Shown here: positions 9,739 to 33,203 of the stretch, piece by piece
Layout of the letters: every line of letters starts with the position of its first letter
How positions within the stretch are numbered: the first letter of the stretch is position 1
Assembly: GCA_000747625.2 (NCBI GenBank)
Contig: JQDQ01000002.1
Location: 1-41,175 of the forward strand
DNA length: 41,175 nucleotides
Direction of reading: 5' to 3'
Source of the DNA: Smithella sp. SCADC
GTDB lineage: Bacteria > Desulfobacterota > Syntrophia > Syntrophales > Smithellaceae
The notes under the pieces: model-generated
What the model was told of the DNA's origin: nothing
The model's input: the letters and a program-made list of their open reading frames with translations, nothing else
Database searches by the model: none
Made by a program: the position numbers and the translations under genes

Positions 9739-12524
9739 TGAAAAGTATTCTTCTGAAAGCGTCCGCAGGTTCGGGAAAAACAACAAGGCTCACCGAAGAA
9801 GTGTTTAAAAGAATACTTATCGGCGGGAAATTCATTGCCGCGCTGACCTTTACCCGCGCTGCCACAACCGGGATGCGTTCCCGGATAATGAAAGAGATAG
9901 CGTCAAAACAAGGTCTGCCTCTCTTGGAGCGCCTGCGGCTGATTATGGAGGCGGGACGCGTCGGGTACGCGACAATCGATTCATTTTTTTACCGGCTCTT
10001 TGCCGCGGCCGACTTAGCGCCGAAGCTCGCAGACGAAAAGGCGCAGATAGAACTATCGCGTGAGATAGAAGTCTTTTTCCGTGACAGAGTCATGCAAAAC
10101 GGCAGGGCCCGTAAAATAATAGTGGCGGCGAGAATTTTAAGAACAGATATTGACACGCTCTGGAAGCCTCTGGCGGATGAACAGACGATCGAACGCTGTC
10201 TGCTTGATATGGCCAGACTTACCGATCTTGATGATCTTATGAAAGAGAACGGTGTTTTAAGAAATACACTGGAATCTATTAGTGAAAAGGCCAAATTTTT
10301 GTCGGAGCAGGTGACACCTAATGTTAACAAGTTGGTTGTAAATGCTTTGGCCGATTACGATATTTTTATTTCCAGAACTGTGGCAACTCATTGTGATCTT
10401 GAAAATTACAAGAGCCTGGGTAAAAAGATAGTGTGGAGTGAAAAACCACATTCAGAGCTAAATAGAATATTTAAGAATTACAGAGAAACCGCCGAGAAGC
10501 TGACAATCAACAGGGCGCTGCTGCGAGAGCTGGCCGTGGCATTTCTTTGCGAGATATATCTGGAAGCGGCTGATACCGTGAAGAATGAAAAAAGATTAAT
10601 ATTTTTCCACGACGTCAGGCGAGGCCTCCTTGCTCTGGACGGTGCGGCATCAATGGAACGCCCGAAATTGATGAGCAATTATTTTTCTCTGGGACTTGAC
10701 CGGACGGAGCATCTGCTGATTGACGAATTTCAGGATACTTCAAAAGGTGACATCGAGATATTGCTGCCCATGATTGACGAGATTTTATCCGGTCGAGGCG
10801 AGCGCGGCGAAAGGTCGTTTTTCGCCGTGGGCGATTGGAAACAAATGATCTACGGGTGGCGCGGCGCAGATCGCGGGGCTTTGGAAGAGGCTATCGAAAA
10901 ATACATCAAAAACAAAGTAATTACGGAAAGCTCGCTCGAATACAATTATCGCAGTACACCGCTGCTTATTTCTTTCTTTAATGAACTGGTCCAAAATATC
11001 TTTACCGGAAAAGAGAGAAACGAAACACAGAAACCGCCGGATGAAATTAAAGCTTTTGAAGGCGTGTCGGAAGCGAATCTTGTTGAGTTGGAAAAAGACG
11101 GCTATTCGCAAGATGCTTTCTATCCCGCGATAGTTGAATATTTGCAGAAGAAAAAAGATGAGTACGGCTGTGCGTGGGGAGATATCGCCGTGCTGGCTTT
11201 AACCAATAACCATGTTCAGAAGATAGAAGCCGAACTTTTAAAAAATAACATCGGCGTGGCGGCGGTGAAAGGAAGGCAGCTTCTTTCAACCCGGGAAGGT
11301 GTGGCGGTAATGCTTTTCATTGCCGGTGTGCTGGCGAAAGATGGTGACGCACAATTTGTTGCCAAAGCGGCAACCTCGCCATTATGGGAAGATCTATTCG
11401 TCAATATCGACGCTATTCGGGTGGAGTTTGCGCAAAAGTTCCCCCAACCTTTCGGGTTAATGGCTGTCAGTTGTGCGATTGAACTGTTGCGAGGAAAACT
11501 GCCTGCGACAATACTGGATATCTGGCAGGAGGAAGCGCAGGCCTTCTTCAGTGAAGGCGGTGCTGACGTAGATGGTTTTCTTCTCAGGATGTTCAACATA
11601 CGTTTTAGTGTGAAAGTTCCAGAATCGGAGGACAGTGAAAATATTAAGGTTGATACTATACACGGAACAAAAGGCCTACAGTTTAAACATGTATTTGTCT
11701 TCTGGAATGAGGATGAAAGGGAGTCCCCGTTTTATCTGGAAGCCGAACGATGTTATGTGCAGTTTTCAGGCAAGGAGATTGATTTCCTGGGTGCGAGCGA
11801 TTCGGCAATTGCCGGAGAAATCATTCAAAATCACGAAATAAATAAAACTCGGCTGCGCCGTGAGCAGGCGAATGTTTTCTATGTTGCAGCAACAAGAGCC
11901 ATACAAACACTGACCGTTTTTCTGCCCAAAAAGAAAGATGAAAACTACAAGCATGTCCATCAGGCCGTGCTGGATACCTTTTTACGCTTTGCGCCGGAGG
12001 GTAGTAAGAAAGAAATATGTTATTCGTCCGGCAAGCCCCAAGAACCTCAACCTGTGACAATATGCAGTGTGCCCGCAAAGCATAATGAAGAGCCGGAAAA
12101 ATACGGCGAGATTGATCCGGCGCTGGTGTCGGCCAATATCAAGGCCGGTATTATGAGAGGTGACCGTCTGCACCGCTGGCTGGCCGGGGTTGTTGATCGG
12201 ACAGTACTTCCGCCGACCGGAGAGCTGAATGATGAAGAATATGAAACAGCTGTACGTTTCGTCGGACGCGGTGATGTCGCCGCAGTCATGTTCCGGTCGG
12301 GCAACATCTATATCGAGCAGCTGATATCGGATAAGGAAAATTTTGGTATTGTGGATAGAATGATCGTGTCGAATAATCTCATTACAATTATCGATTATAA
12401 ATCCGGTTCCATGAGAGGACTAAGATACAAATACGAGGAACAGCTCAAGCGTTACACAAGGATTATGGAAACGCTCTATCCGCAAAAAAGGGTCGAATAT
12501 TATATGCTTTCGATAGATATTTGA
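9738..12524 (+). CDS. AddA/RecB-like UvrD-family helicase-nuclease
   Basis: 928 aa. Superfamily-1A helicase motifs are in order: Walker A KASAGSGKTTRL (8-19), Ia ALTFTRAAT, II LLIDEFQDTSKGD, III FAVGDWKQMIYGWRGAD, IV LEYNYRST, V VDTIHGTKGLQFKHV and VI NVFYVAATRA. A C-terminal RecB-type nuclease follows, with GDRLHRWL, GIVDRMIV, the catalytic TIIDYKSG and QLKRYTRI. The set is that of AddA, the ATP-driven partner of AddB in recombinational repair, although it is shorter than typical AddA (about 1,200 aa). Translation is coupled to the AddB-like gene (TGATG). It converges on the response-regulator gene with 22 bp between stops. Confidence 0.82.
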   Translation: MKSILLKASAGSGKTTRLTEEVFKRILIGGKFIAALTFTRAATTGMRSRIMKEIASKQGLPLLERLRLIMEAGRVGYATIDSFFYRLFAAADLAPKLADEKAQIELSREIEVFFRDRVMQNGRARKIIVAARILRTDIDTLWKPLADEQTIERCLLDMARLTDLDDLMKENGVLRNTLESISEKAKFLSEQVTPNVNKLVVNALADYDIFISRTVATHCDLENYKSLGKKIVWSEKPHSELNRIFKNYRETAEKLTINRALLRELAVAFLCEIYLEAADTVKNEKRLIFFHDVRRGLLALDGAASMERPKLMSNYFSLGLDRTEHLLIDEFQDTSKGDIEILLPMIDEILSGRGERGERSFFAVGDWKQMIYGWRGADRGALEEAIEKYIKNKVITESSLEYNYRSTPLLISFFNELVQNIFTGKERNETQKPPDEIKAFEGVSEANLVELEKDGYSQDAFYPAIVEYLQKKKDEYGCAWGDIAVLALTNNHVQKIEAELLKNNIGVAAVKGRQLLSTREGVAVMLFIAGVLAKDGDAQFVAKAATSPLWEDLFVNIDAIRVEFAQKFPQPFGLMAVSCAIELLRGKLPATILDIWQEEAQAFFSEGGADVDGFLLRMFNIRFSVKVPESEDSENIKVDTIHGTKGLQFKHVFVFWNEDERESPFYLEAERCYVQFSGKEIDFLGASDSAIAGEIIQNHEINKTRLRREQANVFYVAATRAIQTLTVFLPKKKDENYKHVHQAVLDTFLRFAPEGSKKEICYSSGKPQEPQPVTICSVPAKHNEEPEKYGEIDPALVSANIKAGIMRGDRLHRWLAGVVDRTVLPPTGELNDEEYETAVRFVGRGDVAAVMFRSGNIYIEQLISDKENFGIVDRMIVSNNLITIIDYKSGSMRGLRYKYEEQLKRYTRIMETLYPQKRVEYYMLSIDI

Positions 12525-12546
12525 TAATTTTTATTTCGGAACAATG

Positions 12547-13224
12547 TCAAACATGCGTTTGCTGCATTCTCATCATAAGTGCTCTCAGTTCCTCTTGTGA
12601 ACTATACCCGAGCATGTGGTAAAAAGCAGAATTTAGAGTAAGGAATCGTCCCTCTTTAGTTGTTCGATAAATGCCTGAAATGGAATTATCAAAAATGGAG
12701 CGATATTTTGTTTCACTTTCTTGGACCATTTGATTTGCTTCTTCCAGTTGCCGGATTTTCTTTTCCAGTTTTCTAAACAATGCTTCATTGTGTTCTTGTA
12801 GAAAAGCTTCTTCGGAAAGTTCGATCTCCGATGTTGGTTCCGTTATCGTTGATTTAAACTTTGCCATAATCTTTTGTACAAGGTTCAATAGAATATCCGG
12901 TTCCTGAGGTTTTATGATAAACAGATCAGCGCCCATTTCCATGGCCAGTTTTTCGTCTTTAGGATCAGTATAAGTTGCCGTGTAAAAAATAAAGGGAATA
13001 TTCTTTAAATGATCGTCATTTTTCCATTCTTTGCAAAGCATAAAACCATCCATGACAGGCATGAGAATATCGCTGATGATTATATGAGGAGGATCTTCTC
13101 GCGCCGCTTCCAGCGCTTTGGCGCCGTTGCGGGCAGTCATTACTTGGAAACCGTGAGCTTTAAAAAGTGTTTCCAGATAAGAAATATTTTGTTCTTCATC
13201 ATCAACAACGAGAATTTTTTCCAT
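12547..13224 (-). CDS. Response regulator receiver with a C-terminally cut PAS domain
   Basis: 225 aa. Residues 1-120 are a receiver: acidic DD at 8-9, phospho-acceptor Asp52 (IISDILMP) and the Lys of LFIIKPQEP. A coiled-coil linker (about 140-170) leads into a PAS domain start (ESETKYRSIFDNSISGIY, LTLNSAFYHMLGYSSQEEL). The protein ends about 10 residues after the first PAS half, where a full PAS and usually an output domain would continue. It is last in a kinase-receiver-receiver group. The missing PAS half suggests truncation, possibly linked to the PAS fragment that opens the kinase gene. Confidence 0.8.
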   Translation of the reverse strand: MEKILVVDDEEQNISYLETLFKAHGFQVMTARNGAKALEAAREDPPHIIISDILMPVMDGFMLCKEWKNDDHLKNIPFIFYTATYTDPKDEKLAMEMGADLFIIKPQEPDILLNLVQKIMAKFKSTITEPTSEIELSEEAFLQEHNEALFRKLEKKIRQLEEANQMVQESETKYRSIFDNSISGIYRTTKEGRFLTLNSAFYHMLGYSSQEELRALMMRMQQTHV

Positions 13225-13257
13225 AATGGCTCCTTGTATAAAAATGTGCTATTGAAA

Positions 13258-13629
13258 TCAGTCAAAATAAATATGCTCTTTTATTTGTTCAATAAATTTT
13301 TCAGGGTCGATCGGTTTTTCAATGTAGCCGTCTGCTCCGGCAGCGAGAACCCGTTCCCTGTCGCCCACCATGGCATAAGAGGTAACAGCAACGATTGGTG
13401 TAGCGGAGAGTTCATCATTTTTCCTTATCTCCCGTGCCACGGCATACCCATCCATCCTGGGAAGCTGGATGTCGAGGAGAATAAGATGGGGCTTCGTCTC
13501 TTTTGCCATTTCCACTCCTTTTTCTCCATCCGTTGCCTCCACCACGGTGAAACCATTTTTTTCCAGAAGGAACCGCATGAGATAGAGATTCTGTTCGTTA
13601 TCTTCAATTACAAGAATTATCGGATTCAT
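13258..13629 (-). CDS. Single-domain response regulator (CheY-like receiver)
   Basis: 123 aa, only a receiver: acidic pocket VIEDNEQN, phospho-acceptor Asp53 (LILLDIQLPRMDG), Thr/Ser switch VAVTSYA, and conserved Lys in YIEKPIDP. The sequence resembles the DivK-like receivers paired with hybrid or PAS kinases. It starts 11 bp after the kinase stop, so it is probably the direct phosphorylation partner. It has no DNA-binding or enzymatic output. Confidence 0.88.
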   Translation of the reverse strand: MNPIILVIEDNEQNLYLMRFLLEKNGFTVVEATDGEKGVEMAKETKPHLILLDIQLPRMDGYAVAREIRKNDELSATPIVAVTSYAMVGDRERVLAAGADGYIEKPIDPEKFIEQIKEHIYFD

Positions 13630-13640
13630 TTTATTGCTCC

Positions 13641-15035
13641 TTATATTTTAGGCAATGTAACTGTAAATGCAGAGCCTTCTTCTAGCTTGCTTGCCATATG
13701 GATGGAACCGCCCATCATTTCTACAAGTTTTTTTGTTATGTTAAGTCCCAGACCTGTTCCTTCCTGTACCCTTGTTATTCCGCTGTTTACCTGACGAAAG
13801 GCGTCAAAGATAATATTAAGATTTTCCGGTTTAATGCCGATACCGGTATCTGTCACGGACAACGTAATCGATTCGTCGTCTGCATGACAATCAAGCTTGA
13901 TTTCTCCACGGCCGGTAAACTTTACCGCATTACTGAGTAGATTGATGATTATCTGTTCCACTCTTCGCTGATCTCCGCGTATTTCGGATATATTATCTCC
14001 AATTTTGGAATAGAGGCGAAGATTTTTTTTCTCGGCGAGGGGCGAAACAATTTGTAAAGTCTTTTCGATTGATTTTCTCAAATCAAAGATTTCCGACATT
14101 ATTGTAAGTTGCCCTGCTTCTATCTTGGAAATATCGAGGACATCATTGATGAGGTCAAGCAGATGGCGGGCGCTCCCGCGCACCATTCCCAATTGTTTCT
14201 TTTGTTCTTCGTTGAGAGGGCCGGCGAGACCCTGTAGAACCATTCCCGTGAAGCCGATAATCGAGTTAAGAGGTGTGCGTAGCTCATGAGACATAGAGGC
14301 CAGGAAAGCAGATTTGAGCCGGTCGGCTGATTCAGCCTGTTCCTTGGCTATGACCAATTCGGCGGTGCGCTCAGCTACGCGCTTCTCCAAGCTGGTGTTC
14401 AACTCCCTGATTTCCTCCTCCGCTCTTTTTAGTTCTGTAATATCTGTACCAATGCTCATAATTTCGGTTATTTCGCCCTGCTCATTCCGAACAATTCTAT
14501 TAGTCCAGGCAATCCAGACCCGCTCTCCATTGCGGAGGATGTTTTCATTGATGTTTTTTTCGAACGCAATTGGATCATCGCAAATTTGATCCATAAGATG
14601 AATTAGGTCGTGTCCGACGCTATCGATTGTGGGAACAATGGTGCCAATGACATGGCGGCCGATAATCTCCTCCGCGGAATATCCGAAAAATCGTTGTCCA
14701 AACTCATTAAGAAAGGTGATTTTTCCGTCATTTGTCCAGTGCAGAATAATACTATTGGCATACTCTACCAATTCGCGATACTTCCGTTCACTTTCCTGAA
14801 GAGACCTTTCTGCCTCTTTGCGCTCGGTGATGTCGCGAATAACGGCCTGATAGAACCTTTTCCCTTCGCTTTGAATGGCGCGCAAACTGATCTCAACAGG
14901 AAATGTGCTTCCATCTTTACGCTGATGAATGGTTTCGTAAAGTGCCTTGCCCGATAACTGTGCAATCTTTATCTGATTAACAAATTCTTCTTTTGTTTCA
15001 GATGCGCGTAATTGTGACGCATGCATCCCGATCAA
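13641..15035 (-). CDS. PAS sensor histidine kinase, N-terminus cut inside a PAS domain
   Basis: 464 aa from TTG 15035 (ATG 15026 is an alternative). It opens in the second half of a PAS domain; the same frame reads YGYSHEELIG just upstream but hits a stop at 15081-15083 with no ATG. Residues 78-205 form a complete PAS/PAC (YRELVEYANSIILHW to GEITEIMSIGTDIT), followed by a short coiled coil. HisKA has H-box FLASMSHELRTPLN (His250). HATPase has the N box QIIINLLSNAVKF and the G boxes DTGIGI and GTGLGL. It has no transmembrane segment, so it is cytoplasmic. Catalytic parts look intact. A good promoter lies about 60 bp upstream of the start. Confidence 0.85.
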   Translation of the reverse strand: MIGMHASQLRASETKEEFVNQIKIAQLSGKALYETIHQRKDGSTFPVEISLRAIQSEGKRFYQAVIRDITERKEAERSLQESERKYRELVEYANSIILHWTNDGKITFLNEFGQRFFGYSAEEIIGRHVIGTIVPTIDSVGHDLIHLMDQICDDPIAFEKNINENILRNGERVWIAWTNRIVRNEQGEITEIMSIGTDITELKRAEEEIRELNTSLEKRVAERTAELVIAKEQAESADRLKSAFLASMSHELRTPLNSIIGFTGMVLQGLAGPLNEEQKKQLGMVRGSARHLLDLINDVLDISKIEAGQLTIMSEIFDLRKSIEKTLQIVSPLAEKKNLRLYSKIGDNISEIRGDQRRVEQIIINLLSNAVKFTGRGEIKLDCHADDESITLSVTDTGIGIKPENLNIIFDAFRQVNSGITRVQEGTGLGLNITKKLVEMMGGSIHMASKLEEGSAFTVTLPKI

Positions 15036-15095
15036 TTCTTCGTGTGAATATCCATAAAAATCTTTTGTAGTGAAATTTAGTTATGATTTGAATTA

Positions 15096-15123
15096 ATCAT
15101 ACTATAAGTTGTTTGAATGTCAA
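15096..15123 (-). promoter_or_regulatory. Sigma-70-type promoter for the histidine kinase group
   Basis: On the minus strand TTGACA (15118-15123), a 16-bp spacer and TATGAT (15096-15101) lie upstream of the kinase. Predicted transcription begins near 15089, giving a leader of about 55 nt to the TTG start. Confidence 0.6.
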
Positions 15124-15170
15124 TGAAGTTAATAATAACATAAATTATAGATTACGAAGCCGGTAATTAA

Positions 15171-15206
15171 AAAGCCCCTTCAGTTTTTTAAGTTGAAGGG
15201 GCTTTT
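15171..15206 (-). terminator. Rho-independent terminator after the MFS gene
   Basis: Stem gccccttca (15174-15182) with tgaaggggc (15194-15202), short AT loop, and T-rich tract on the minus strand. It lies about 30 bp after the transporter stop and separates it from the kinase promoter. Confidence 0.85.
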
Positions 15207-15234
15207 ATTTTTGGATAAGCAAAAAATAGTTTAC

Positions 15235-16527
15235 TTAGCTTTTTTTACCTTTTGGTGCTTTGTAAACAAGAGTTATGCAAAAGCCAGCGGTTAGCAGACC
15301 GGCTGCGATGAACAGTGCCTGAGGTTTGAACGCTTCAAATACAAAGGGGCCGATGATACCGGCGGTGCTCCATGCGGTCAGCATAAATCCATATACTTTA
15401 CCAATATAGGCCGGGCCGAATGCGTCTGCGGCAAAGGCGGGCATGACAGCGAAACCGCCGCCATAACAGGCCAGAAGATAGCAGGAAGCTACTATAAAAA
15501 GCACGTAGGTGGAAACAAAACCTTTGGCAACCAGAACATACAGAACAGCCTGAGTGGCAAACATGATCAAGAATACCATTTTACGGCCGATATTATCGGA
15601 AATTTTTGCCCAGAAAAGTCTTCCCAAACCATTGAATATTGCGGCGTAGGCAACAACAGCTCCACCGGCAGCTGCTACTATGGCTACTTGTTCCGGAGTC
15701 AAATCACCGGTTAAGCCCATTGTTTTCTTGTAAATATCCTGGGCCAGCGGGGAATGTTGGGAGATAAGGCCAAGACCGGCGGATACGTTAAGGCACAGCA
15801 TGGACCAAAGCATCCACCACTGGGGGGTCTTTACGGCTTCACCTAAAGTGAAAGAATCAGCCGCGGAAACGGTTGTAGCGGCTGGTTTAAAACCGGCAGG
15901 CAGCCATCCCTTTGGAGGATTTTTGAATAATTGGGCGGAACCGGTTACAAGAACAAGGAATATCACGCCCCAAATATACCAGGTTGTGGAAACACCAGAG
16001 GAGATTATTGTACCGTTAGGGTCAATCTGCTGAAAGGACTTGATCATTATCGGAGCGATTTTTCCCATAAAGAAAGCGCCGGCGCCGAAACCCATAACCG
16101 CCAGACCAGTTACCAGACCTCTTTTATCCGGGAACCAGCGAATCAGTGTGGCAATCGGTGTAACGTAGCCAAAACCATTGCCCAATGCGCAAATTACGCC
16201 GAATCCGAGATATAGAAGAGTTATGCTTCCAATTTGATCAGCGTAACCGGCTACTAATGTACCGATACCAAAAAGGATACCACCAATCGTGGCTACGAAA
16301 CGGGGCCCTTTTTTATCGACCAGAGTGCCGCCGAAAGCAGCAGCCAATCCAAGAATACCCATAAGAATCATGAATGTGTATTGGACTGTTTTCCCATCCC
16401 ATCCGTGCATTTTCATTAAAGGCATTTTAAAAACCGACCATGCGTACACAGTGCCCAGACAAAGCTGAATGATAACAGCTGCGCCTGCAATCAACCATCT
16501 TTTACTTTCTAAATTTTCATTTGCCAT
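15235..16527 (-). CDS. MFS transporter, oxalate/formate antiporter (OFA) family
   Basis: About 430 aa with twelve hydrophobic segments and a hydrophilic central loop near residues 200-225. QLCLGTVYAWSVFKMPL in helix 1 and the internal repeat (YAAIFNGLGRLFWAKISDNIGRK) are typical of OxlT-like proteins. The ATG at 16527 has AGAGAGGA about 9 bp upstream and is preferred; the frame also has ATG 16536, which directly abuts the ribosome site. OFA members exchange small carboxylates. Formate or another organic acid would fit the neighbouring hydrogen metabolism, but the substrate cannot be read from sequence. It has its own promoter and terminator. Confidence 0.88.
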   Translation of the reverse strand: MANENLESKRWLIAGAAVIIQLCLGTVYAWSVFKMPLMKMHGWDGKTVQYTFMILMGILGLAAAFGGTLVDKKGPRFVATIGGILFGIGTLVAGYADQIGSITLLYLGFGVICALGNGFGYVTPIATLIRWFPDKRGLVTGLAVMGFGAGAFFMGKIAPIMIKSFQQIDPNGTIISSGVSTTWYIWGVIFLVLVTGSAQLFKNPPKGWLPAGFKPAATTVSAADSFTLGEAVKTPQWWMLWSMLCLNVSAGLGLISQHSPLAQDIYKKTMGLTGDLTPEQVAIVAAAGGAVVAYAAIFNGLGRLFWAKISDNIGRKMVFLIMFATQAVLYVLVAKGFVSTYVLFIVASCYLLACYGGGFAVMPAFAADAFGPAYIGKVYGFMLTAWSTAGIIGPFVFEAFKPQALFIAAGLLTAGFCITLVYKAPKGKKS

Positions 16528-24175: not shown

Positions 24176-25936
24176 CTATTCATCTTTTGCATGAGGCAAA
24201 TCGGTGCCTCTATTTACATACTTGGTGTGCAAAAGCTTATGTGACTTGTGACCCAAAGGTTCTTTCAGAAATTTGTCATACAGCTTTTTAACCGACTCAT
24301 TCTCGTGTGATTGACGGTTCTTCTGGACTTTCCCGTCATCTTTATAAAGAGCAGCTGACCGCAAAACCCGAATTTCGTCATTAGTGGGGATAGGTTCTCC
24401 GCCACCTGATATACAACCGCCGGGACAACACATAACTTCAATGAAGGCATAACTTGCTTTACCTTCACGGATGAGATCCATAAGTTTTCGGGCGTTACCC
24501 AGACCATGGGCAACAGCTATCTTGACATCGCCAAGAGGTCCCACCTTGACGGTTGCTTCTTTAACGCCTTCCAGACCGCGCACAGGTGTTATATCCAGGC
24601 TGGGCAGGTTTTCTCCCGTGACAACGGCATAAACGGTGCGCAGAGCTGCTTCCATAACGCCGCCGGTCGCGCCGAAAATTGTTGCGGCGCCGGTGTACTC
24701 GCCCATCGGAGCATCGTAATCTTCATCAGGCAGATTGACAAAATCAATTCCGCCTTCTTTAATCATCCGGCCCAGTTCTCTTGTGGTGAGAACATAATCA
24801 ACATCACGGAACCCGCTGCTGTCCATTTCCGGCCGCTGGGCTTCAAACTTCTTAGCGGTGCAGGGCATGATGGAGACGGAAACTATATCTTTCGGATCGA
24901 TGCCCGCTGTTTCCGCGTAATATGTTTTGGCCAGAGCGCCGAACATCTGCTGCGGAGATTTACAGGTTGATAGATGACCGAGCAGATCAGGATAAAAATG
25001 TTCGCAGAACTTGATCCATCCGGGACTGCACGATGTAATCATCGGCAATACTCCGCCTTCTTTGACTCTTTTGAGCAGTTCATTGCCTTCCTCAATAATG
25101 GTGAGATCGGCGGTAAAATTGGTGTCGAATACTTTATCAAAGCCCAGTCTACGCAGAGCCGTGATCATTTTTCCGGTGACAAGACTTCCCGGAGGCATGC
25201 CGAATTCTTCGCCAAGAGCAGCACGAATAGCCGGAGCTTCCTGTACGATTACGTGCTTGGCCGGGTCATTAAGCGCTTTCCAGACTGAATCAACATCATC
25301 CTTTTCATAAAGAGCGCCGACCGGACAAACAAGGATGCATTGGCCGCAGGCGACACAGTTGGATTCAATCAAGGGCAGATCAAACGCCGGAACCACTTTA
25401 ACGTCGCTGCCGCGATACGCGGGAGTCAAAACGCTGACAGTTTGAATCTGATCGCAGACGGTGACGCAACGGTGACATTCGATGCATTTGCGGCTGTCCC
25501 GGACAATTGCAGGACTGGAACGGTCGATCATTCCTTCCTTGGGGAATTTGGTATATTCGAAACGGACTTCCTTGAGGCCGGCAAATTCAGCTACTTTCTG
25601 CAATTCGCAGTTGCCGTTTCTCACGCAGAAATTACACTCCTGCGGATGATTGGCCAGCAGGAGTTCCACAACCATTTTTCTGGCTTCGCGGACTTTCTCC
25701 GTATTGGTGTGAACAACCATACCTTCGGAAACGGGGAAAACACAAGCGGCTATCAGAGAGCGCTGACCTTCCACTTCAGTCATGCAGACCCGGCAGGCGC
25801 CCGGTGTGTGTTTTATTTCTGTCCAGGCGCAAAGAGTAGGGATTTTTATTCCTACACTGCGTGCCGCTTCCAGAACGGTTGAACCCGCTTCTACTTCTAT
25901 CTGACGATTATCAATAGTCAATTTAACAGTTGACAT
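24176..25936 (-). CDS. hydA: [FeFe]-hydrogenase catalytic subunit HydA (HndD-like)
   Basis: 586 aa. N-terminal [2Fe-2S] (Cys36, 48, 51, 65); His-Cys3 [4Fe-4S] (His97, Cys101, 104, 110); two ferredoxin-type [4Fe-4S] (Cys151/154/157/161 and 194/197/200/204). The H-domain follows, with L1 TSCSPGW (Cys303), L2 MPCTAKKFEAQRPE (Cys359) and L3 EVMCCPGGCISGGG (Cys504, 508). This is the layout of HydA in NAD(P)-linked trimeric or tetrameric, often electron-bifurcating hydrogenases. L1 has Ser where Clostridium and Chlamydomonas enzymes have the second Cys. It is last in the hydC-hndB-hydB-hydA order and is followed by a terminator. It has no signal peptide and is cytoplasmic. Confidence 0.93.
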   Translation of the reverse strand: MSTVKLTIDNRQIEVEAGSTVLEAARSVGIKIPTLCAWTEIKHTPGACRVCMTEVEGQRSLIAACVFPVSEGMVVHTNTEKVREARKMVVELLLANHPQECNFCVRNGNCELQKVAEFAGLKEVRFEYTKFPKEGMIDRSSPAIVRDSRKCIECHRCVTVCDQIQTVSVLTPAYRGSDVKVVPAFDLPLIESNCVACGQCILVCPVGALYEKDDVDSVWKALNDPAKHVIVQEAPAIRAALGEEFGMPPGSLVTGKMITALRRLGFDKVFDTNFTADLTIIEEGNELLKRVKEGGVLPMITSCSPGWIKFCEHFYPDLLGHLSTCKSPQQMFGALAKTYYAETAGIDPKDIVSVSIMPCTAKKFEAQRPEMDSSGFRDVDYVLTTRELGRMIKEGGIDFVNLPDEDYDAPMGEYTGAATIFGATGGVMEAALRTVYAVVTGENLPSLDITPVRGLEGVKEATVKVGPLGDVKIAVAHGLGNARKLMDLIREGKASYAFIEVMCCPGGCISGGGEPIPTNDEIRVLRSAALYKDDGKVQKNRQSHENESVKKLYDKFLKEPLGHKSHKLLHTKYVNRGTDLPHAKDE

Positions 25937-29086: not shown

Positions 29087-29470
29087 TTATTTTGTTACTT
29101 CAGAGCCTTTAGCCAGAACAAAAGGCGTCTGAATTTCTCCGTCTAGAACATGTTTTTTGAAAACCTGTCTCATTTTATTGGTATTCATATATTCATATTT
29201 TATGGGTTCCTGATTTAATACCTCAACAGTAACTAAAGGCTCGCGGCTGCAGAGTCCCATGCATCCGGATGTTGTAACGACAACATCATTTACCTTGGCG
29301 GTTTCAATTTCCTGAAGAAGAGTATCCATAACTTCTTTTGCTCCAGAAGCGATACCGCATGTTCCCATGTGAACAGTTATTTTGACGCGACGTACGCCAT
29401 CACGCAGAGACATTTCTTTGTGTACTTTTGTTTTAATCTTTTTTAAATCATCAATAGTTAATTTTGCCAT
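29087..29470 (-). CDS. hndB: HndB-like thioredoxin-fold [2Fe-2S] subunit
   Basis: 127 aa. MAKLTIDDLKKIKTKVHKEM and the cysteine blocks HMGTCGIASGAKEVM (Cys38) and TTSGCMGLCSREPL (Cys70, 74) match HndB of NADP-reducing hydrogenases. Only three of the four expected cluster cysteines are visible, as I recall for the family. It lies between hydC and hydB, making the complex a four-subunit HndABCD-like type. The role is probably electron transfer or assembly. Confidence 0.85.
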   Translation of the reverse strand: MAKLTIDDLKKIKTKVHKEMSLRDGVRRVKITVHMGTCGIASGAKEVMDTLLQEIETAKVNDVVVTTSGCMGLCSREPLVTVEVLNQEPIKYEYMNTNKMRQVFKKHVLDGEIQTPFVLAKGSEVTK

Positions 29471-29504: not shown

Positions 29505-29999
29505 TTAATTGTATTGACTTAAAATTTCTTTAACTTTCCCCGGCTTAATCCGGCCATGAACATCTTCATCCACTACAACGACAGGACCCAGTCCGCAAGC
29601 TCCCAGGCATCGTACCGTTTCCAGTGTGAACATGCGATCAGGTGTCGTTTCTCCTTCCGTGATTCCAAACTCTTTCTCTAACTTTTCATAGATGGCCTTG
29701 CCGCCACGCACGTAGCAGGCTGTGCCCAGACAAACACGAACAGTGTGTTTGCCACGTGGGGTCATGGTGAAAAATGAGTAAAAGGTAACAACGCCGTAAA
29801 CACGGCTCAGCGGCAGATTCAATCCGGAAGCAATTTTTTTCTGCACGGATATAGGAAGATATTCCAAGACGACCTGCGCTTCTTCCAATACCGGAATTAA
29901 TCCGCCCGGCTTACCTTTAAATTTTTCAATAATGCTGTTTAGCTTTTTTACCTGTTCTTTTGAAAAATCTTTTAACAACTCTGTGTCTTCAGCTTTCAT
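29505..29999 (-). CDS. hydC: HydC/HndA, NuoE-like [2Fe-2S] subunit
   Basis: About 164 aa from ATG 29999, with GAGGAGG 6 bp upstream; a TTG one codon earlier is less likely. The thioredoxin-like [2Fe-2S] ligands are Cys90, Cys95 (CLGTACYVRGG) and Cys131, Cys135 (CLGACGLGP). The N-terminal helical bundle (LIPVLEEAQVVLEYLP) matches NuoE. It works with HydB as the NAD-side electron-transfer unit. It is the first structural gene after the signalling module and the decayed ATPase copy. Confidence 0.92.
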   Translation of the reverse strand: MKAEDTELLKDFSKEQVKKLNSIIEKFKGKPGGLIPVLEEAQVVLEYLPISVQKKIASGLNLPLSRVYGVVTFYSFFTMTPRGKHTVRVCLGTACYVRGGKAIYEKLEKEFGITEGETTPDRMFTLETVRCLGACGLGPVVVVDEDVHGRIKPGKVKEILSQYN

Positions 30000-30040
30000 C
30001 AAATTCCTCCTCGATCTTTTGGGGCTATTTAAGCTTCAAG

Positions 30041-30200
30041 CTTTATTGTACAAAAACCTCCTTCTAAAACACCCCGGATATACTTTTAATTTTTCAGAAT
30101 GTTTTATCGCCACATTCTTGCTTTTCGTAATTATCTTTATAATGTCCCTTGACTGCCGGTCATATATCAATGTTTGTAGATAAAATCAACATTTGATTGC
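30041..30200 (-). pseudogene. Decayed partial copy of the GHKL ATPase gene 3' end
   Basis: The gap between the ATPase gene and hydC aligns along its length with the last ~170 bp of the ATPase gene. Translated pieces are NVDFIYKH against GVDFVYKH and KYIRGVLEGGF against KYIRGVLEEGF, with the same spacing, separated by stops and frameshifts. At base level gttgattttatctacaaaca matches gttgattttgtttacaaaca. It is a relic of a tandem duplication. Confidence 0.75.
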
Positions 30201-30242
30201 TGGTTTCTAAATTTTTTTTTCGATTTTAGGAGCAATTTTGTT

Positions 30243-30785
30243 TCATTTTTTTATTTCGTCAAAACCTTCTTCCAGAACGCCCCGAATATATTTTAATATT
30301 TCGGGATGATTTATAGGTATATCGCTGATTTCTTTACGTATTATTCTAGTGTCCAGTTCGAATTCCCGGTCATCACGCCTGTGTTTGTAAACAAAATCAA
30401 CGCCTGAATTACCGGCGACAAGAATAATTAATGTGCCGGTAATATCTCCCAGAGGTTGCCGGTCTACGTGACTGAGGCCGAAAGATGCTTGAACAGTCGT
30501 TCCTTTGCCTTCTTGAGATTCCAGATTAAAATGACCACCTGATCTTTGGGTGGCATCGGCAAGAAGTGGAAGGCCTAAACCTACGCGTCTTACAGTTTTA
30601 GTCGTATAGAAAGGATCTAAAGCCTTTTTTATTTCTTCCGGTTTCATTCCCTGACCATCATCGATAATTTCTATGGAAAGAGAATCGTTTGCCGTGTCTT
30701 CATTAATGTTGATTTCAATTAGTTTGGCTCCTGCCCGAACGGAGTTTTCGGCAATATCCAGAATATGCGCGGAAAGCTCAATCAT
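30243..30785 (-). CDS. GHKL-type ATP-binding protein (histidine-kinase-like ATPase) of the hydrogenase module
   Basis: 180 aa. N box HILDIAENSVRAGA, G1 DDGQGM, G2 GLGLPLLADATQRSGG and a following GKGTTVQASF make a complete histidine-kinase-type ATPase domain over residues 1-115. No HisKA/phospho-His domain or sensor is present. The C-terminal 65 residues (YKHRRDDREFELDT to YIRGVLEEGF) are not a domain I know. The start overlaps the PHP gene by 4 bp. It is likely a regulator or kinase acting on another module protein. A decayed copy of its 3' end follows it. Confidence 0.8.
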   Translation of the reverse strand: MIELSAHILDIAENSVRAGAKLIEININEDTANDSLSIEIIDDGQGMKPEEIKKALDPFYTTKTVRRVGLGLPLLADATQRSGGHFNLESQEGKGTTVQASFGLSHVDRQPLGDITGTLIILVAGNSGVDFVYKHRRDDREFELDTRIIRKEISDIPINHPEILKYIRGVLEEGFDEIKK

Positions 30786-31525
30786 TGTTGCTCCATAACA
30801 TAACGGCCGTTTTGTTTTTTAAAAGCCATTTTTAATTCGGCAACAGATGGTTCCTGTAGAATGATTCGTGTAATTGCCGATCCGATATCCTTAACAAAAT
30901 GAGAATCTGAGGAAATAATAAATGAATATTTAAAGAGTTCCGGATATTTAATTCTGGCCTGTTCAAAACCAGTGCGAGGTGTTATTTCCAGAGCGTCAAA
31001 TCCGGAATTATCATCAATAAATCCAAGCTGACTCAGAACACTAAAACTTTCCCGGTCTATGTGCGCGGCAATGGCTAATCCCTCAAACTGGTGTATGTAA
31101 CCAATCAGTTTATCCAGAGATATGTCGGTTGCGCCGATCAGCAATTGATTATTTATGCCCTCCACTTCGCCTTTTTCGTTGACTATAGCCTGGACACCAA
31201 AGCTATCTTCATCATTTTCTCCTTTAAGATGCTGATCAATAATATTTTGCATTAACGCAAGATTGGAAACAGAATCAAATATGGCCAGCAGGTGGACTTC
31301 TTCAATTGTTGTGATTTCCATGCCGGGCAGTATTTTCAGATTGCTTCCCCGGGCAGCGTTGATTACATAAGGAACATTTGCTGAAGAATTGTGATCACAA
31401 ATGGCAATAATATTGAGCTCGGTTTCCAGGGCTTTCTTTACTAACGGCATGGGGTGCATATCAAGCTCGGCACAGGGTGAAAGGCAAGTGTGTACGTGTA
31501 GATCACAGTTGAAAACTTTCAGCAT
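30782..31525 (-). CDS. PHP-domain phosphoesterase-like protein
   Basis: 247 aa. Metal-binding blocks of the PHP fold are all visible: DLHVHTCLSPCAELDM near the N-terminus, ICDHNSS, PGMEITTIEEVHLLAIF, AAHIDRESFS and SSDSHF. Such domains hydrolyse phosphoesters or nucleotides with a tri-metal site. The close relatives I recall sit beside [FeFe]-hydrogenase genes. It is coupled to the ATPase gene by a 4-bp overlap. It could reverse a phosphorylation or degrade a nucleotide signal; that is inference. Confidence 0.82.
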   Translation of the reverse strand: MLKVFNCDLHVHTCLSPCAELDMHPMPLVKKALETELNIIAICDHNSSANVPYVINAARGSNLKILPGMEITTIEEVHLLAIFDSVSNLALMQNIIDQHLKGENDEDSFGVQAIVNEKGEVEGINNQLLIGATDISLDKLIGYIHQFEGLAIAAHIDRESFSVLSQLGFIDDNSGFDALEITPRTGFEQARIKYPELFKYSFIISSDSHFVKDIGSAITRIILQEPSVAELKMAFKKQNGRYVMEQQ

Positions 31526-31562
31526 GGTTCCTTTAAACGGTCATTGAAGTGGCTGCCGTAAA

Positions 31563-31904
31563 TTAATCTTTTTTCCCTAATAGATTATAGATTTTGCCAG
31601 TTAACTCAAAGGCAGGCAAATCAGAAACAATTAGGGGTATTTTTTCCTGATTTGCTTTTTCTAAAGTTTCCTGAGTTGGATCGCAGGAATTAGTTAATAT
31701 AATACCTGCGTGTTCTTTCAGGCTTGCCACGGCAACAATATTCTGGTGTACCTGCCTTGTTATCCAGATATCTCCCTCGTGAGAATTTGCGATAACATCG
31801 CTAAGAAGATCTCCCGTATAACCTCCTGTGACATTATTATTAAGTTTGTCTGACACAGACCTCACTTTTAAATTTAATTCTTTAACAATAGTTTCGACGT
31901 TCAT
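31563..31904 (-). CDS. DRTGG-type domain protein (divergent member)
   Basis: 113 aa. The core TGGYTGDLLSDVIANSHEGD, IWITRQVHQNIVAVASL and AGIILTNS, then KIPLIVSDLPAFELTGKIY, matches the DRTGG domain first named in pyruvate kinase/Pta/CBS-linked proteins (GGDLMSDVL..A..G.LLITG pattern). It diverges from the two tandem copies upstream and keeps a GG rather than FGAD. It probably binds a small ligand. It lies between the RsbW-like and PHP genes. Confidence 0.75.
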   Translation of the reverse strand: MNVETIVKELNLKVRSVSDKLNNNVTGGYTGDLLSDVIANSHEGDIWITRQVHQNIVAVASLKEHAGIILTNSCDPTQETLEKANQEKIPLIVSDLPAFELTGKIYNLLGKKD

Positions 31905-31921
31905 AGTAAATCCTTGATGAG

Positions 31922-32377
31922 TTAAGGGAGATTAATAATTATTTTCAGAAAAGTTCCTTTATCGACTTCCGACGAAAGGTTGAATGTGTCAGAAGAACAT
32001 TTGATATTATAAAGTCCCATACCGGCGCCAAATCCCATCTCTCTTATCTGCCGGTCCGCGGTAGAATAACCTTGCTCCATTGCCAATTCAATATCGGGTA
32101 TTCCGGGTCCTTCATCAATGATATCAAATTCGACAGTCTTGGGAGTGACAGTCAGATTGATGACTCCTTGCCTGGCATAAGATACAATATTAATTTCTGA
32201 TTCATAACAGGCAATGGCTGCTTTCCTGATGATGTTATTAGGTAAACCAATGTTTTTGAGAATAGACTTTATTTGCGTGGAAACCGATCCTGCATTATCA
32301 AAATTACCACCTTCAACATCAAAACTATTCTTAAATAAATAATTTTCAGTTTCAGCTGTTTGCACTGTGATCTTCAA
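31922..32377 (-). CDS. RsbW/SpoIIAB-like anti-sigma-type ATPase
   Basis: 151 aa. GHKL ATPase with IRKAAIACYESEINIVSYA (N box with the metal-binding Asn), DIIDEGPGIPDIELAM (G1) and GFGAGMGLYNIK (G2). The length and lack of other domains fit anti-sigma or serine-kinase switch proteins. No sigma factor or STAS anti-anti-sigma partner is encoded nearby, so its partner may be the adjacent DRTGG proteins. It overlaps the upstream DRTGG gene by 26 bp. Confidence 0.8.
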   Translation of the reverse strand: MKITVQTAETENYLFKNSFDVEGGNFDNAGSVSTQIKSILKNIGLPNNIIRKAAIACYESEINIVSYARQGVINLTVTPKTVEFDIIDEGPGIPDIELAMEQGYSTADRQIREMGFGAGMGLYNIKCSSDTFNLSSEVDKGTFLKIIINLP

Positions 32378-32726
32378 CTTGTTCCAGACAACTAACTATG
32401 CCCTTGGTATAAAGACGGCCGGCAGTTTCAAATAAAATATATTTGGTTGTCAGAAGAGGAATTTTAAATTCTTTGGCCAGATTAATGGTTTCGATAGGTG
32501 GTTTTTTCCCTCTAACCAAGATTATAGCGGCAATATCCATAACATGGGCTATTCTGATTATCTGGCTGTTGGTCAGACCTGTCAGCAAAAGACTGCCGGC
32601 TTTTGCAAAAGCAAGAACGTCACTCATCAAATCAGCCCCGAAAGCTGTTTTGACTTCCATATCCAATTTTTCCGTACCGACTATGATTTCGGCATCAAGT
32701 ATTTCTTTTACGTCTTTCAGTTTCAA
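32352..32726 (-). CDS. DRTGG-type domain protein (tandem copy 2)
   Basis: 124 aa. KLKDVKEILDAEIIVGTEKL, then the core FGADLMSDVLAFAKAGSLL, LTGLTNSQII, AAIILVRGK and KIPLLTTKYILFETAGRLY. Over the shared ~118 residues I count roughly 75 percent identity to the protein encoded at 32805-33203, so they are tandem paralogues. The domain probably binds a nucleotide-like ligand, by analogy to its occurrence with CBS domains. It overlaps the RsbW-like gene, suggesting a functional pair. Confidence 0.8.
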   Translation of the reverse strand: MKLKDVKEILDAEIIVGTEKLDMEVKTAFGADLMSDVLAFAKAGSLLLTGLTNSQIIRIAHVMDIAAIILVRGKKPPIETINLAKEFKIPLLTTKYILFETAGRLYTKGIVSCLEQVEDHSANS

Positions 32727-32804
32727 TATCTAATCCTCACGAGAAACATATTTCGTTTTTTTACTTAAATATCAAAATTAAATTGTTGTTTTTAGTATCA
32801 TATA

Positions 32805-33203
32805 TTAACCTTTACTGTCAATGCATTCTTCTTTATACAAACTGTCACTTTGTACTTTTTTCAGGCAACCAACTATACCCTTAGTATAAAGAATGCCGGC
32901 CGTTTCGAATAAAATATATTTCGTAGCCAGAATGGGAATCTGAAGTTCTTTAGCCATATTGACAGCTTCGGGTGAAGGTTGTTTTCCTCTAACTAAGATA
33001 ATGGCAGCAATATTCCTGGTAGCCGCTGTTTTAACGACCTGGGAATTGGTCAGACCTGTGAGCAAAAGACTGCCTGCTTTCGCAAAAGCAAGAACGTCGC
33101 TCATCAAATCAGCTCCAAAAGCTGTCTGGACTTCCATATCCAGTTTTTCCGCGCCGACAATTACATCGGCATCGAGTATTTCTTTAACTTCTTGTAATTT
33201 CAA
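32805..33203 (-). CDS. DRTGG-type domain protein (tandem copy 1, first gene of the hydrogenase operon)
   Basis: 132 aa. Same architecture as the next gene (FGADLMSDVLAFAKAGSLL, LTGLTNSQVV, IPILATKYILFETAGILY), differing mainly around residues 56-64 and 75-90 and in the C-terminal tail, which has an extra Cys and charged residues. It is the promoter-proximal gene of the minus-strand group that ends at hydA. The 286 bp upstream to the tRNA-Pro gene hold a possible TTGACA (33334-33339, minus) with a poor -10. Confidence 0.8.
   Translation of the reverse strand: MKLQEVKEILDADVIVGAEKLDMEVQTAFGADLMSDVLAFAKAGSLLLTGLTNSQVVKTAATRNIAAIILVRGKQPSPEAVNMAKELQIPILATKYILFETAGILYTKGIVGCLKKVQSDSLYKEECIDSKG

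Follow-up and report, generated by a model that had tools for sequence, protein, structure and literature searches.

The stretch of Smithella sp. SCADC DNA analysed here (contig JQDQ01000002.1, 41,175 nucleotides, called the window below) carries, at 30243-33203 on the minus strand, six genes which encode three DRTGG-domain proteins (DRT1, DRT2 and DRT3), two stand-alone GHKL ATPases (one RsbW-like, the other named HKa) and a PHP-family phosphoesterase, and which are followed by an operon for an [FeFe] hydrogenase (HydC, HydD, HydB and HydA). A preliminary description, made from the sequence alone, had taken the six genes for a signalling system belonging to the hydrogenase. We find that they form a conserved and co-inherited bacterial module, widespread within the Desulfobacterota, the phylum surveyed, and that the common partner of this module is a diaphorase of the NuoE/NuoF type, complex I included, and not hydrogenase as such: its tie to hydrogenase is an instance of a wider one to NADH diaphorase. 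It is likely, in our judgement, that the module has a signalling or regulatory function for NuoEF-type enzymes.

What had been said of the genes themselves was borne out. All six are open reading frames, closely packed and with two overlaps (DRT2 with the RsbW-like ATPase, and PHP with HKa). Pfam agrees with the assignment of three DRTGG proteins, two GHKL ATPases and one PHP protein, and it shows soluble domains only, on which the claim that no membrane segment is present rests. The absence of a receiver from the module was also confirmed, yet receivers and SpoIIE phosphatases adjoin it in some relatives.

The survey covered the Desulfobacterota, plus a set of named loci selected on PHP. In an even draw of 247 genomes of the phylum, with PHP and HKa scored at E ≤ 1e-20, each of the two was found in 56 genomes; 55 genomes had both, 190 had neither and only two had one alone (PHP in G121, HKa in G079). 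The prediction that the genes would be kept together across genomes thus held. The 57 genomes with PHP or HKa are called module genomes below; stretches were taken from all of them, not from every matching contig (the PHP contig of G075 was left out). Gene order is conserved as well. Among the named loci, i.e. the best 80 of 160 confirmed relatives chosen by PHP match, PHP adjoins HKa in all 80, the five gene types are all present in 70, and a HydC, HydD or HydB gene was seen in 69, the other 11 including short contigs. Metagenome-assembled genome (MAG) labels within this set ('Actinobacteria' for L085, 'Spirochaetes' for L104) were not trusted as evidence of phylum. In a set of 60 related genomes (own, genus, family and order), PHP was matched in 53, strongly in 48 (E < 1e-20, the window's own genome included) and weakly in 5. 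PHP and HKa adjoin HydC/D/B genes in 29 of 30 fetched regions, which come partly from the same genomes as the named loci and some of which are cut by contig ends; exceptions among these regions are L050, with only a weak PHP match, and L042, without DRT2 and RsbW.

The claim that the system belongs to the hydrogenase did not survive the comparison of module genomes with the others. With group A [FeFe] hydrogenase scored by TIGR02512 at E 1e-60, a match was found in 36 of the 247 genomes, 12 of the 57 with the module and 24 of the 190 without it (Fisher p 0.13). The NuoF family, scored by TIGR01959 at the same limit, was found in 208 genomes: 56 of the 57 module genomes against 152 of the 190 others (p 3e-4). 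The sole module genome without a NuoF match is G164, whose locus has a piece of HydB at the contig end. HydB, HydC or HydD lies within 1.5 kb of the module on the same strand in 47 module genomes, and in 45 the distance from HKa to one of these genes is at most 300 bases.

The catalytic partners are varied. Marks counted within 12 kb of the module, in numbers that depend on the score limits of purpose-built profiles, were formate dehydrogenase in 11 of the 57 genomes, [FeFe] HydA in 8, ETF in 4 and [NiFe] hydrogenase in 2; NuoD and/or NuoH were marked in 13, one of which is a formate dehydrogenase genome that also has NuoH. By eye, NuoD stands in the same run as module genes in 11 genomes. In G112 (locus L161) the genes RsbW-DRT3-PHP-HKa are inserted between NuoD and NuoE, followed by NuoG and NuoH (these two by Pfam), and in the G152 locus NuoB and NuoD were confirmed by Pfam. 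Two further arrangements were recorded. In L051 (G007) 12013-16455, a locus with a 99% identical PHP, HydB is present but has no HydA directly behind it, the next gene being FadR-like (by eye). In L163 a gene for a formate/nitrite transporter (10897-11850) separates HKa from HydB, and the same cluster occurs in 5 of 40 loci.

The active sites are strongly conserved in alignments of up to 79 genomes per family, copies below the score limits being left out. In the RsbW-like ATPase, E48 and N52 of the N-box are present in 74 of 74 copies, and D77/G79/G81 (DxGxG) and G104/G106/G108/G110 in 75 of 75; the N-box Glu presumably corresponds to the catalytic Glu of SpoIIAB. Its score against TIGR01925 (anti-sigma F) is 40.8 bits, far under the 135-bit cut-off, and its solved relatives are anti-sigma F factors, weakly matched (E 0.002-0.003). 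In HKa, residues D10, N14, D42, G44, G46, G69, G71, D108, P111 and G113 occur in 83 of 83 copies and H106 in 82; the AlphaFold2 model has a pLDDT of 90.4 and its nearest folds are of the MutL/GyrB type. We considered HKa as a two-component histidine kinase and rejected the idea, there being no HisKA domain; the 50 fold matches listed include no histidine kinase either, though one may stand outside that list. For PHP, H10 and H12 are found in 77 of 77 scored copies and D44, H45, E70, H155, D207 and H209 in 78 of 78, eight residues which presumably, from the PHP family, are metal ligands. Its sequence matches include, besides the TrlF-family proteins that score best, 3',5'-nucleoside bisphosphate phosphatase and RNase RNM, and its matches to solved structures include an exoribonuclease. 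As judged from these alignments, the ATP and metal sites of the two GHKL ATPases and of PHP are intact; loss of the ATPase catalytic residues, a possibility left open by the preliminary description, is contradicted by their near-invariance in both families.

The solved-structure relatives of the DRTGG proteins are weak by sequence (best E 0.024, 0.5 and 0.031), and the GDR motif of a generic DRTGG protein encoded in the window genome is replaced, by eye, in all three. DRT2 and DRT3 share a D-L-x-S motif whose serine, Ser35, is present in 73 of 73 DRT2-type and 83 of 83 DRT3 copies. That Ser35 is a unique phospho-site is not claimed: the generic DRTGG protein of the same genome, aligned by eye, also has a serine there, so that Ser35 is a candidate phospho-site only. 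Pfam gave no STAS match on the six module proteins, the rest of the genome not having been searched for STAS.

Gene fusions in relatives suggest what the DRTGG proteins may interact with. DRT2 and the RsbW-like ATPase form a single open reading frame in G089 and G300, which belong to two genera of one family; RsbW was matched in three of the nine genomes of that family, and in the third, G124, DRT2 and RsbW are separate. A HydS-like protein with Fe_hyd_lg_C and Fe-S domains (HydS2) is encoded in 23 of the 57 module genomes, between RsbW and DRT3 in the runs. In six loci it is fused to a DRTGG domain, DRT3-like in L162, L163 and L186 and DRT2-like in L122, L124 and L133 (L122 and L124 come from the same MAG, on separate contigs). 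All 23 aligned HydS2 rows have Cys at the three H-cluster motifs (four Cys), the motif-1 Cys of the yardstick HydA row lying one place earlier; these motif Cys may be the ones which bind the H-cluster. The single-open-reading-frame fusions suggest that the DRTGG proteins are partners of the kinase-like ATPase, as had been proposed, and also of a sensor.

The RsbW-like ATPase is further fused to two CBS domains in L156 and L172 (Pfam) and, by the same label of a purpose-built profile, in L171 and L196; L049 has a partial CBS domain with it. At L049:630-1886 a DUF2889-cytidylate kinase fusion lies between the CBS-RsbW gene and the DRTGG genes. Given the sensory-hydrogenase-like and CBS fusions, redox and nucleotide input to the module is plausible; of the earlier suggestion that the system tunes hydrogenase to redox or nucleotide state, the input side is thus retained and hydrogenase as the target is not.

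Other signalling genes are found beside the module in part of the relatives. Upstream of it, some have a HydA-GltD fusion, a small ferredoxin, a HydS with a PAS domain and a SpoIIE phosphatase. SpoIIE was seen in 4 of the 30 regions and in 6 of the best 80 of 160 loci, two overlapping sets (by Pfam for L053 and L038, by profile for the others). At L053:855-4289 and L059:15430-18912, a protein of about 1150 residues that joins a GltD-like FAD domain to [FeFe] hydrogenase (L053 by Pfam) stands beside HydS, SpoIIE and the module. In G089 and G300, HKa is followed by a CheY-like receiver gene at a distance of 24 and 39 bases, respectively, and in the 17-19 kb taken from these two genomes no gene could be recognised as a diaphorase. 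The HKa gene of G218 has a HydS-histidine kinase and a receiver downstream of it. L207:4637-6643, which directly follows HKa and precedes a receiver, encodes a histidine kinase (HisKA-HATPase) fused to a sensory hydrogenase domain.

We propose that the module, with the general layout DRTGG-RsbW-[HydS-like]-DRTGG-PHP-HKa, may be a partner switch in the cytoplasm, driven by ATP, which senses the redox and adenylate state and sets the output of the diaphorase. It would be dedicated to NADH-linked enzymes with a NuoE/NuoF-type diaphorase. The DRTGG proteins would take the role that STAS proteins have in RsbW/RsbV, i.e. would bind the RsbW-like ATPase, one of them perhaps being phosphorylated. A redox/H2 sensor (HydS-like, not in the window operon) and the adenylate level (through CBS/DRTGG) would bias the switch, which PHP, or the SpoIIE phosphatase where there is one, would reset. 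HKa would be the output ATPase, clamping HydC/HydD/HydB in an ATP-dependent manner or phosphorylating them and thereby matching NADH oxidation to the redox and energy state; in the two genera represented by G089 and G300 it would seemingly be rewired to the CheY-like receiver. The full switch is, to our mind, evenly poised between right and wrong, and phosphotransfer is its weakest step.

Several points weigh against the proposed switch. A phosphorylation site is unproven on any module protein, and the invariance of Ser35 could be structural. HKa lacks a phospho-acceptor (HisKA/DHp) domain, Pfam at E 0.1 giving HATPase families only, and all of its 50 listed fold matches are MutL/PMS2/MLH1-type, GyrB/ParE or topoisomerase VI. 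The relatives of PHP are, by sequence and structure, TrlF-type proteins, RNases and nucleotide phosphoesterases, not protein phosphatases. The window operon has neither HydS2 nor another sensor gene, and no SpoIIE match was obtained in the window genome at E 0.001 (this MAG being 95% complete). DRT2 was undetected in 9 and RsbW in 4 of the 57 fetched module sets. Ten of the 57 have no diaphorase gene within 1.5 kb (G089, G121, G122, G124, G179, G203, G225, G246, G266 and G284), five of them (G179, G225, G246, G266 and G284) having diaphorase and formate dehydrogenase genes farther upstream in the same run, and no catalytic partner was recognised in 20 of the 57 fetched stretches, some of which are cut by contig ends. 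A quick tree built from HKa, PHP and DRT3 of 76 genomes requires no fewer than 9 changes of the five partner labels among the rows that carry one; the labels are clustered (25 changes with the unknown class versus a shuffled mean of 41.3), and partner swaps are therefore not frequent. Several forks of this tree are weak, and genomes with two HKa copies give one row, maybe not that of the nuo-operon copy. Finally, the survey spans one phylum.

Four other explanations have to be set beside the switch. The module could be an assembly or maturation factor, in which the GHKL ATPases and DRTGG proteins would be chaperones, powered by ATP, for the insertion of cofactors or for the joining of diaphorase and catalytic partner. 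The likeness of the HKa fold to the ATP clamps of MutL and GyrB speaks for this, as does the place of HKa beside HydC/HydD/HydB, the part common to several enzyme types; the CBS, sensory-hydrogenase and receiver links fit sensing instead, G089 and G300 have the module without a recognised diaphorase gene in their stretches, and NuoF-family matches are frequent in genomes that lack the module. We regard an assembly role as rather unlikely. It is unlikely, too, that the module handles a nucleotide signal, with PHP destroying a compound such as Ap4A or pAp, DRTGG binding the nucleotide and the ATPases relaying it to the diaphorase. The nucleotide- and RNA-cleaving relatives of PHP and the CBS-RsbW fusions agree with it, and DRTGG and CBS occur together in the regulatory insert of CBS-pyrophosphatases, whose CBS domains bind AMP and ADP (available text of PMC10742508); yet among the recurrent neighbours, judged by eye from the clusters of 40 loci and not all identified, none was recognisable as a nucleotide-synthase gene, and the module proteins lack the GDR motif of the generic DRTGG protein.

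An output on transcription, the module acting on an unlinked sigma factor or receiver to tune operon expression, appears quite unlikely. RsbW-like ATPases commonly bind sigma factors, and receivers follow HKa in G089 and G300 and, behind a sensor kinase, in G218. Against this, inspection by eye of the neighbour clusters shared by at least 5 of the 40 loci, not all of which could be assigned, brought up no gene for a sigma factor, a STAS protein or a DNA-binding protein, and only two of the loci searched, plus G300, have a receiver in the 2.1 kb downstream of HKa. As to a regulator specific for hydrogenase, it is highly improbable: the window and seven others of the 57 module genomes do have [FeFe] HydA in the run, but 45 lack a group A match at E 1e-60, and the partner survey, because of which a hydrogenase-only role was rejected, brought up complex I (nuo), formate dehydrogenase, [NiFe] hydrogenase and ETF as well. 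Such a regulator is contradicted except as a lineage-specific role.

The genes of the window and the evidence for their assignment are collected in Table 1.

Table 1. The six module genes and the hydrogenase operon that follows them
Feature	Coordinates	Strand	Evidence
DRT1, DRTGG-domain protein, 132 aa, TTG start	32805..33203	-	Pfam DRTGG PF07085 E 2.6e-13, 50.1 bits
DRT2, DRTGG-domain protein, 124 aa	32352..32726	-	Pfam DRTGG PF07085 E 5.9e-11, 42.6 bits
RsbW/SpoIIAB-like stand-alone GHKL ATPase, 151 aa	31922..32377	-	Pfam HATPase_c 3.5e-08, HATPase_c_2 1.1e-06
DRT3, divergent DRTGG protein, 113 aa	31563..31904	-	Pfam DRTGG 24.5 bits, just under gathering score 25.2
PHP-family metal phosphoesterase, 247 aa	30782..31525	-	Pfam PHP 2.0e-09
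HKa, stand-alone GHKL ATPase, 180 aa, C-terminal extension with H-x-D-R-Q-P-x-G	30243..30785	-	Pfam HATPase_c 2.8e-16
HKa-HydC gap, decayed duplicate of HKa 3' end	30003..30242	-	71% over 142 bases
HydC, NuoE-like [2Fe-2S] subunit, diaphorase partner	29505..30002	-	Pfam 2Fe-2S_thioredx 5e-51
HydD, small thioredoxin-like [2Fe-2S] protein	29087..29470	-	Pfam 7.6e-05, 23.0 bits (cut-off 24.8); conserved neighbour
HydB, NuoF-type diaphorase fused to GltD-like FAD domain, 1018 aa	25969..29025	-	Pfam Complex1_51K 1.1e-47, Pyr_redox_2 4.8e-33
HydA, [FeFe] hydrogenase group A6	24176..25936	-	NCBIfam NF040763 909 bits, cut-off 765

They are read on the minus strand in the order of the table, from DRT1 to HydA. 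HydB scores 504.7 bits against TIGR01959 (cut-off 558.65) and 488.9 bits against PRK12771 (cut-off 516). DRT1 and DRT2 are probably a tandem duplicate, since the two proteins are 73% identical; paired consecutive DRT2-type genes are also present in several relatives (L051, L052, L055 and L056). The 240 bases between HKa and HydC represent a copy of the 3' end of HKa that has decayed (local score 121 versus at most 67 in 500 shuffles), and the two genes almost abut in other genomes, e.g. L053 and L064. Upstream of the module are tRNA-Pro and tRNA-Leu and divergent genes that read, by eye, as tig-clpP-clpX-lon. Promoter-like sites (24 versus 17.7 in shuffles, sd 4.2) and terminator-like sites (17 versus 10.6, sd 3.2) were not used as evidence. 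Elsewhere in the window genome (an assembly of 3.2 Mb, 94.7% complete with 8.2% contamination), at G000:C187:595-1756, [FeFe] hydrogenase domain matches are split over two separate open frames.

A single NADH-handling core is common to bifurcating hydrogenases, formate dehydrogenases and complex I, and its throttling in anaerobes and syntrophs is poorly known. If the proposed switch is true, the module, whose parts resemble sensors of redox and adenylate together with switches driven by ATP, would be a candidate for a general control of NADH-linked electron flow, whichever enzyme the core feeds, and the SpoIIE-type phosphatases found in clusters with sensory hydrogenases might have their kinase and substrate in it. 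Parts of the set probably occur near hydrogenases of clostridia as well. The literature on DRTGG, on PHP, HATPase or anti-sigma proteins with hydrogenase, on anti-sigma or PHP proteins with nuo, on serine phosphatases with HydS and on partner switching with hydrogenase gave no description of the module in the portions available, papers with possible hydrogenase gene lists being outside the search; the module is apparently undescribed and built from known domain types.

The nearest relatives among described enzymes and regulators each share part of it. HydB and HydC correspond to BfuB and BfuC of the BfuABC / Nuo-Bfu family, whose described partners include formate dehydrogenase, [NiFe] hydrogenase and complex I; the main text of that paper, in the version available, has zero mentions of histidine kinase, phosphatase, PHP or anti-sigma, and a figure legend refers, without detail, to uncoloured processing or regulatory genes (PMC9304861). 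Sensory [FeFe] hydrogenases are described in the available parts of PMC11837493 and PMC10055695, and a serine phosphatase in the former. In Thermoanaerobacterium, mutation or deletion of hfsB, which encodes a PAS hydrogenase, led to more ethanol being formed per substrate, and when hfsC, for a serine phosphatase, was deleted along with hfsD, flux shifted to lactate (PMC11837493, in the parts available); HydS of Thermotoga is said to have an unclear role (PMC10055695, likewise). The HydS and HfsB-HfsC clusters of Ruminococcus, Thermotoga and Thermoanaerobacterium have the same HydS with PAS, SpoIIE-type phosphatase and hydrogenase that stand beside the module in some relatives, and the DRTGG, PHP and stand-alone GHKL genes go unmentioned in the available text of their descriptions (PMC11837493, PMC10055695). 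Unlike these clusters, the window operon is without sensor and phosphatase.

In the CBS-DRTGG insert of family II pyrophosphatases, CBS and DRTGG are used together, as in the module (PMC10742508, as far as available); unlike that enzyme, the module splits the DRT proteins from the CBS-RsbW fusions and links them to ATPases, not to a pyrophosphatase. The closest parallel in design is with the switches RsbW/RsbV/RsbU and SpoIIAB/SpoIIAA/SpoIIE. The module resembles them in its small cytoplasmic GHKL ATPase with E-x-x-x-N, DxGxG and a glycine loop, in its small one-domain partner, here fused to the ATPase in two genera, and in the SpoIIE phosphatase, here beside the module in some relatives. It differs in that no sigma factor is present in the module (unlinked ones were not searched), that a second GHKL ATPase and a PHP protein are added and that, where those switches use a STAS partner, the module has DRTGG instead.

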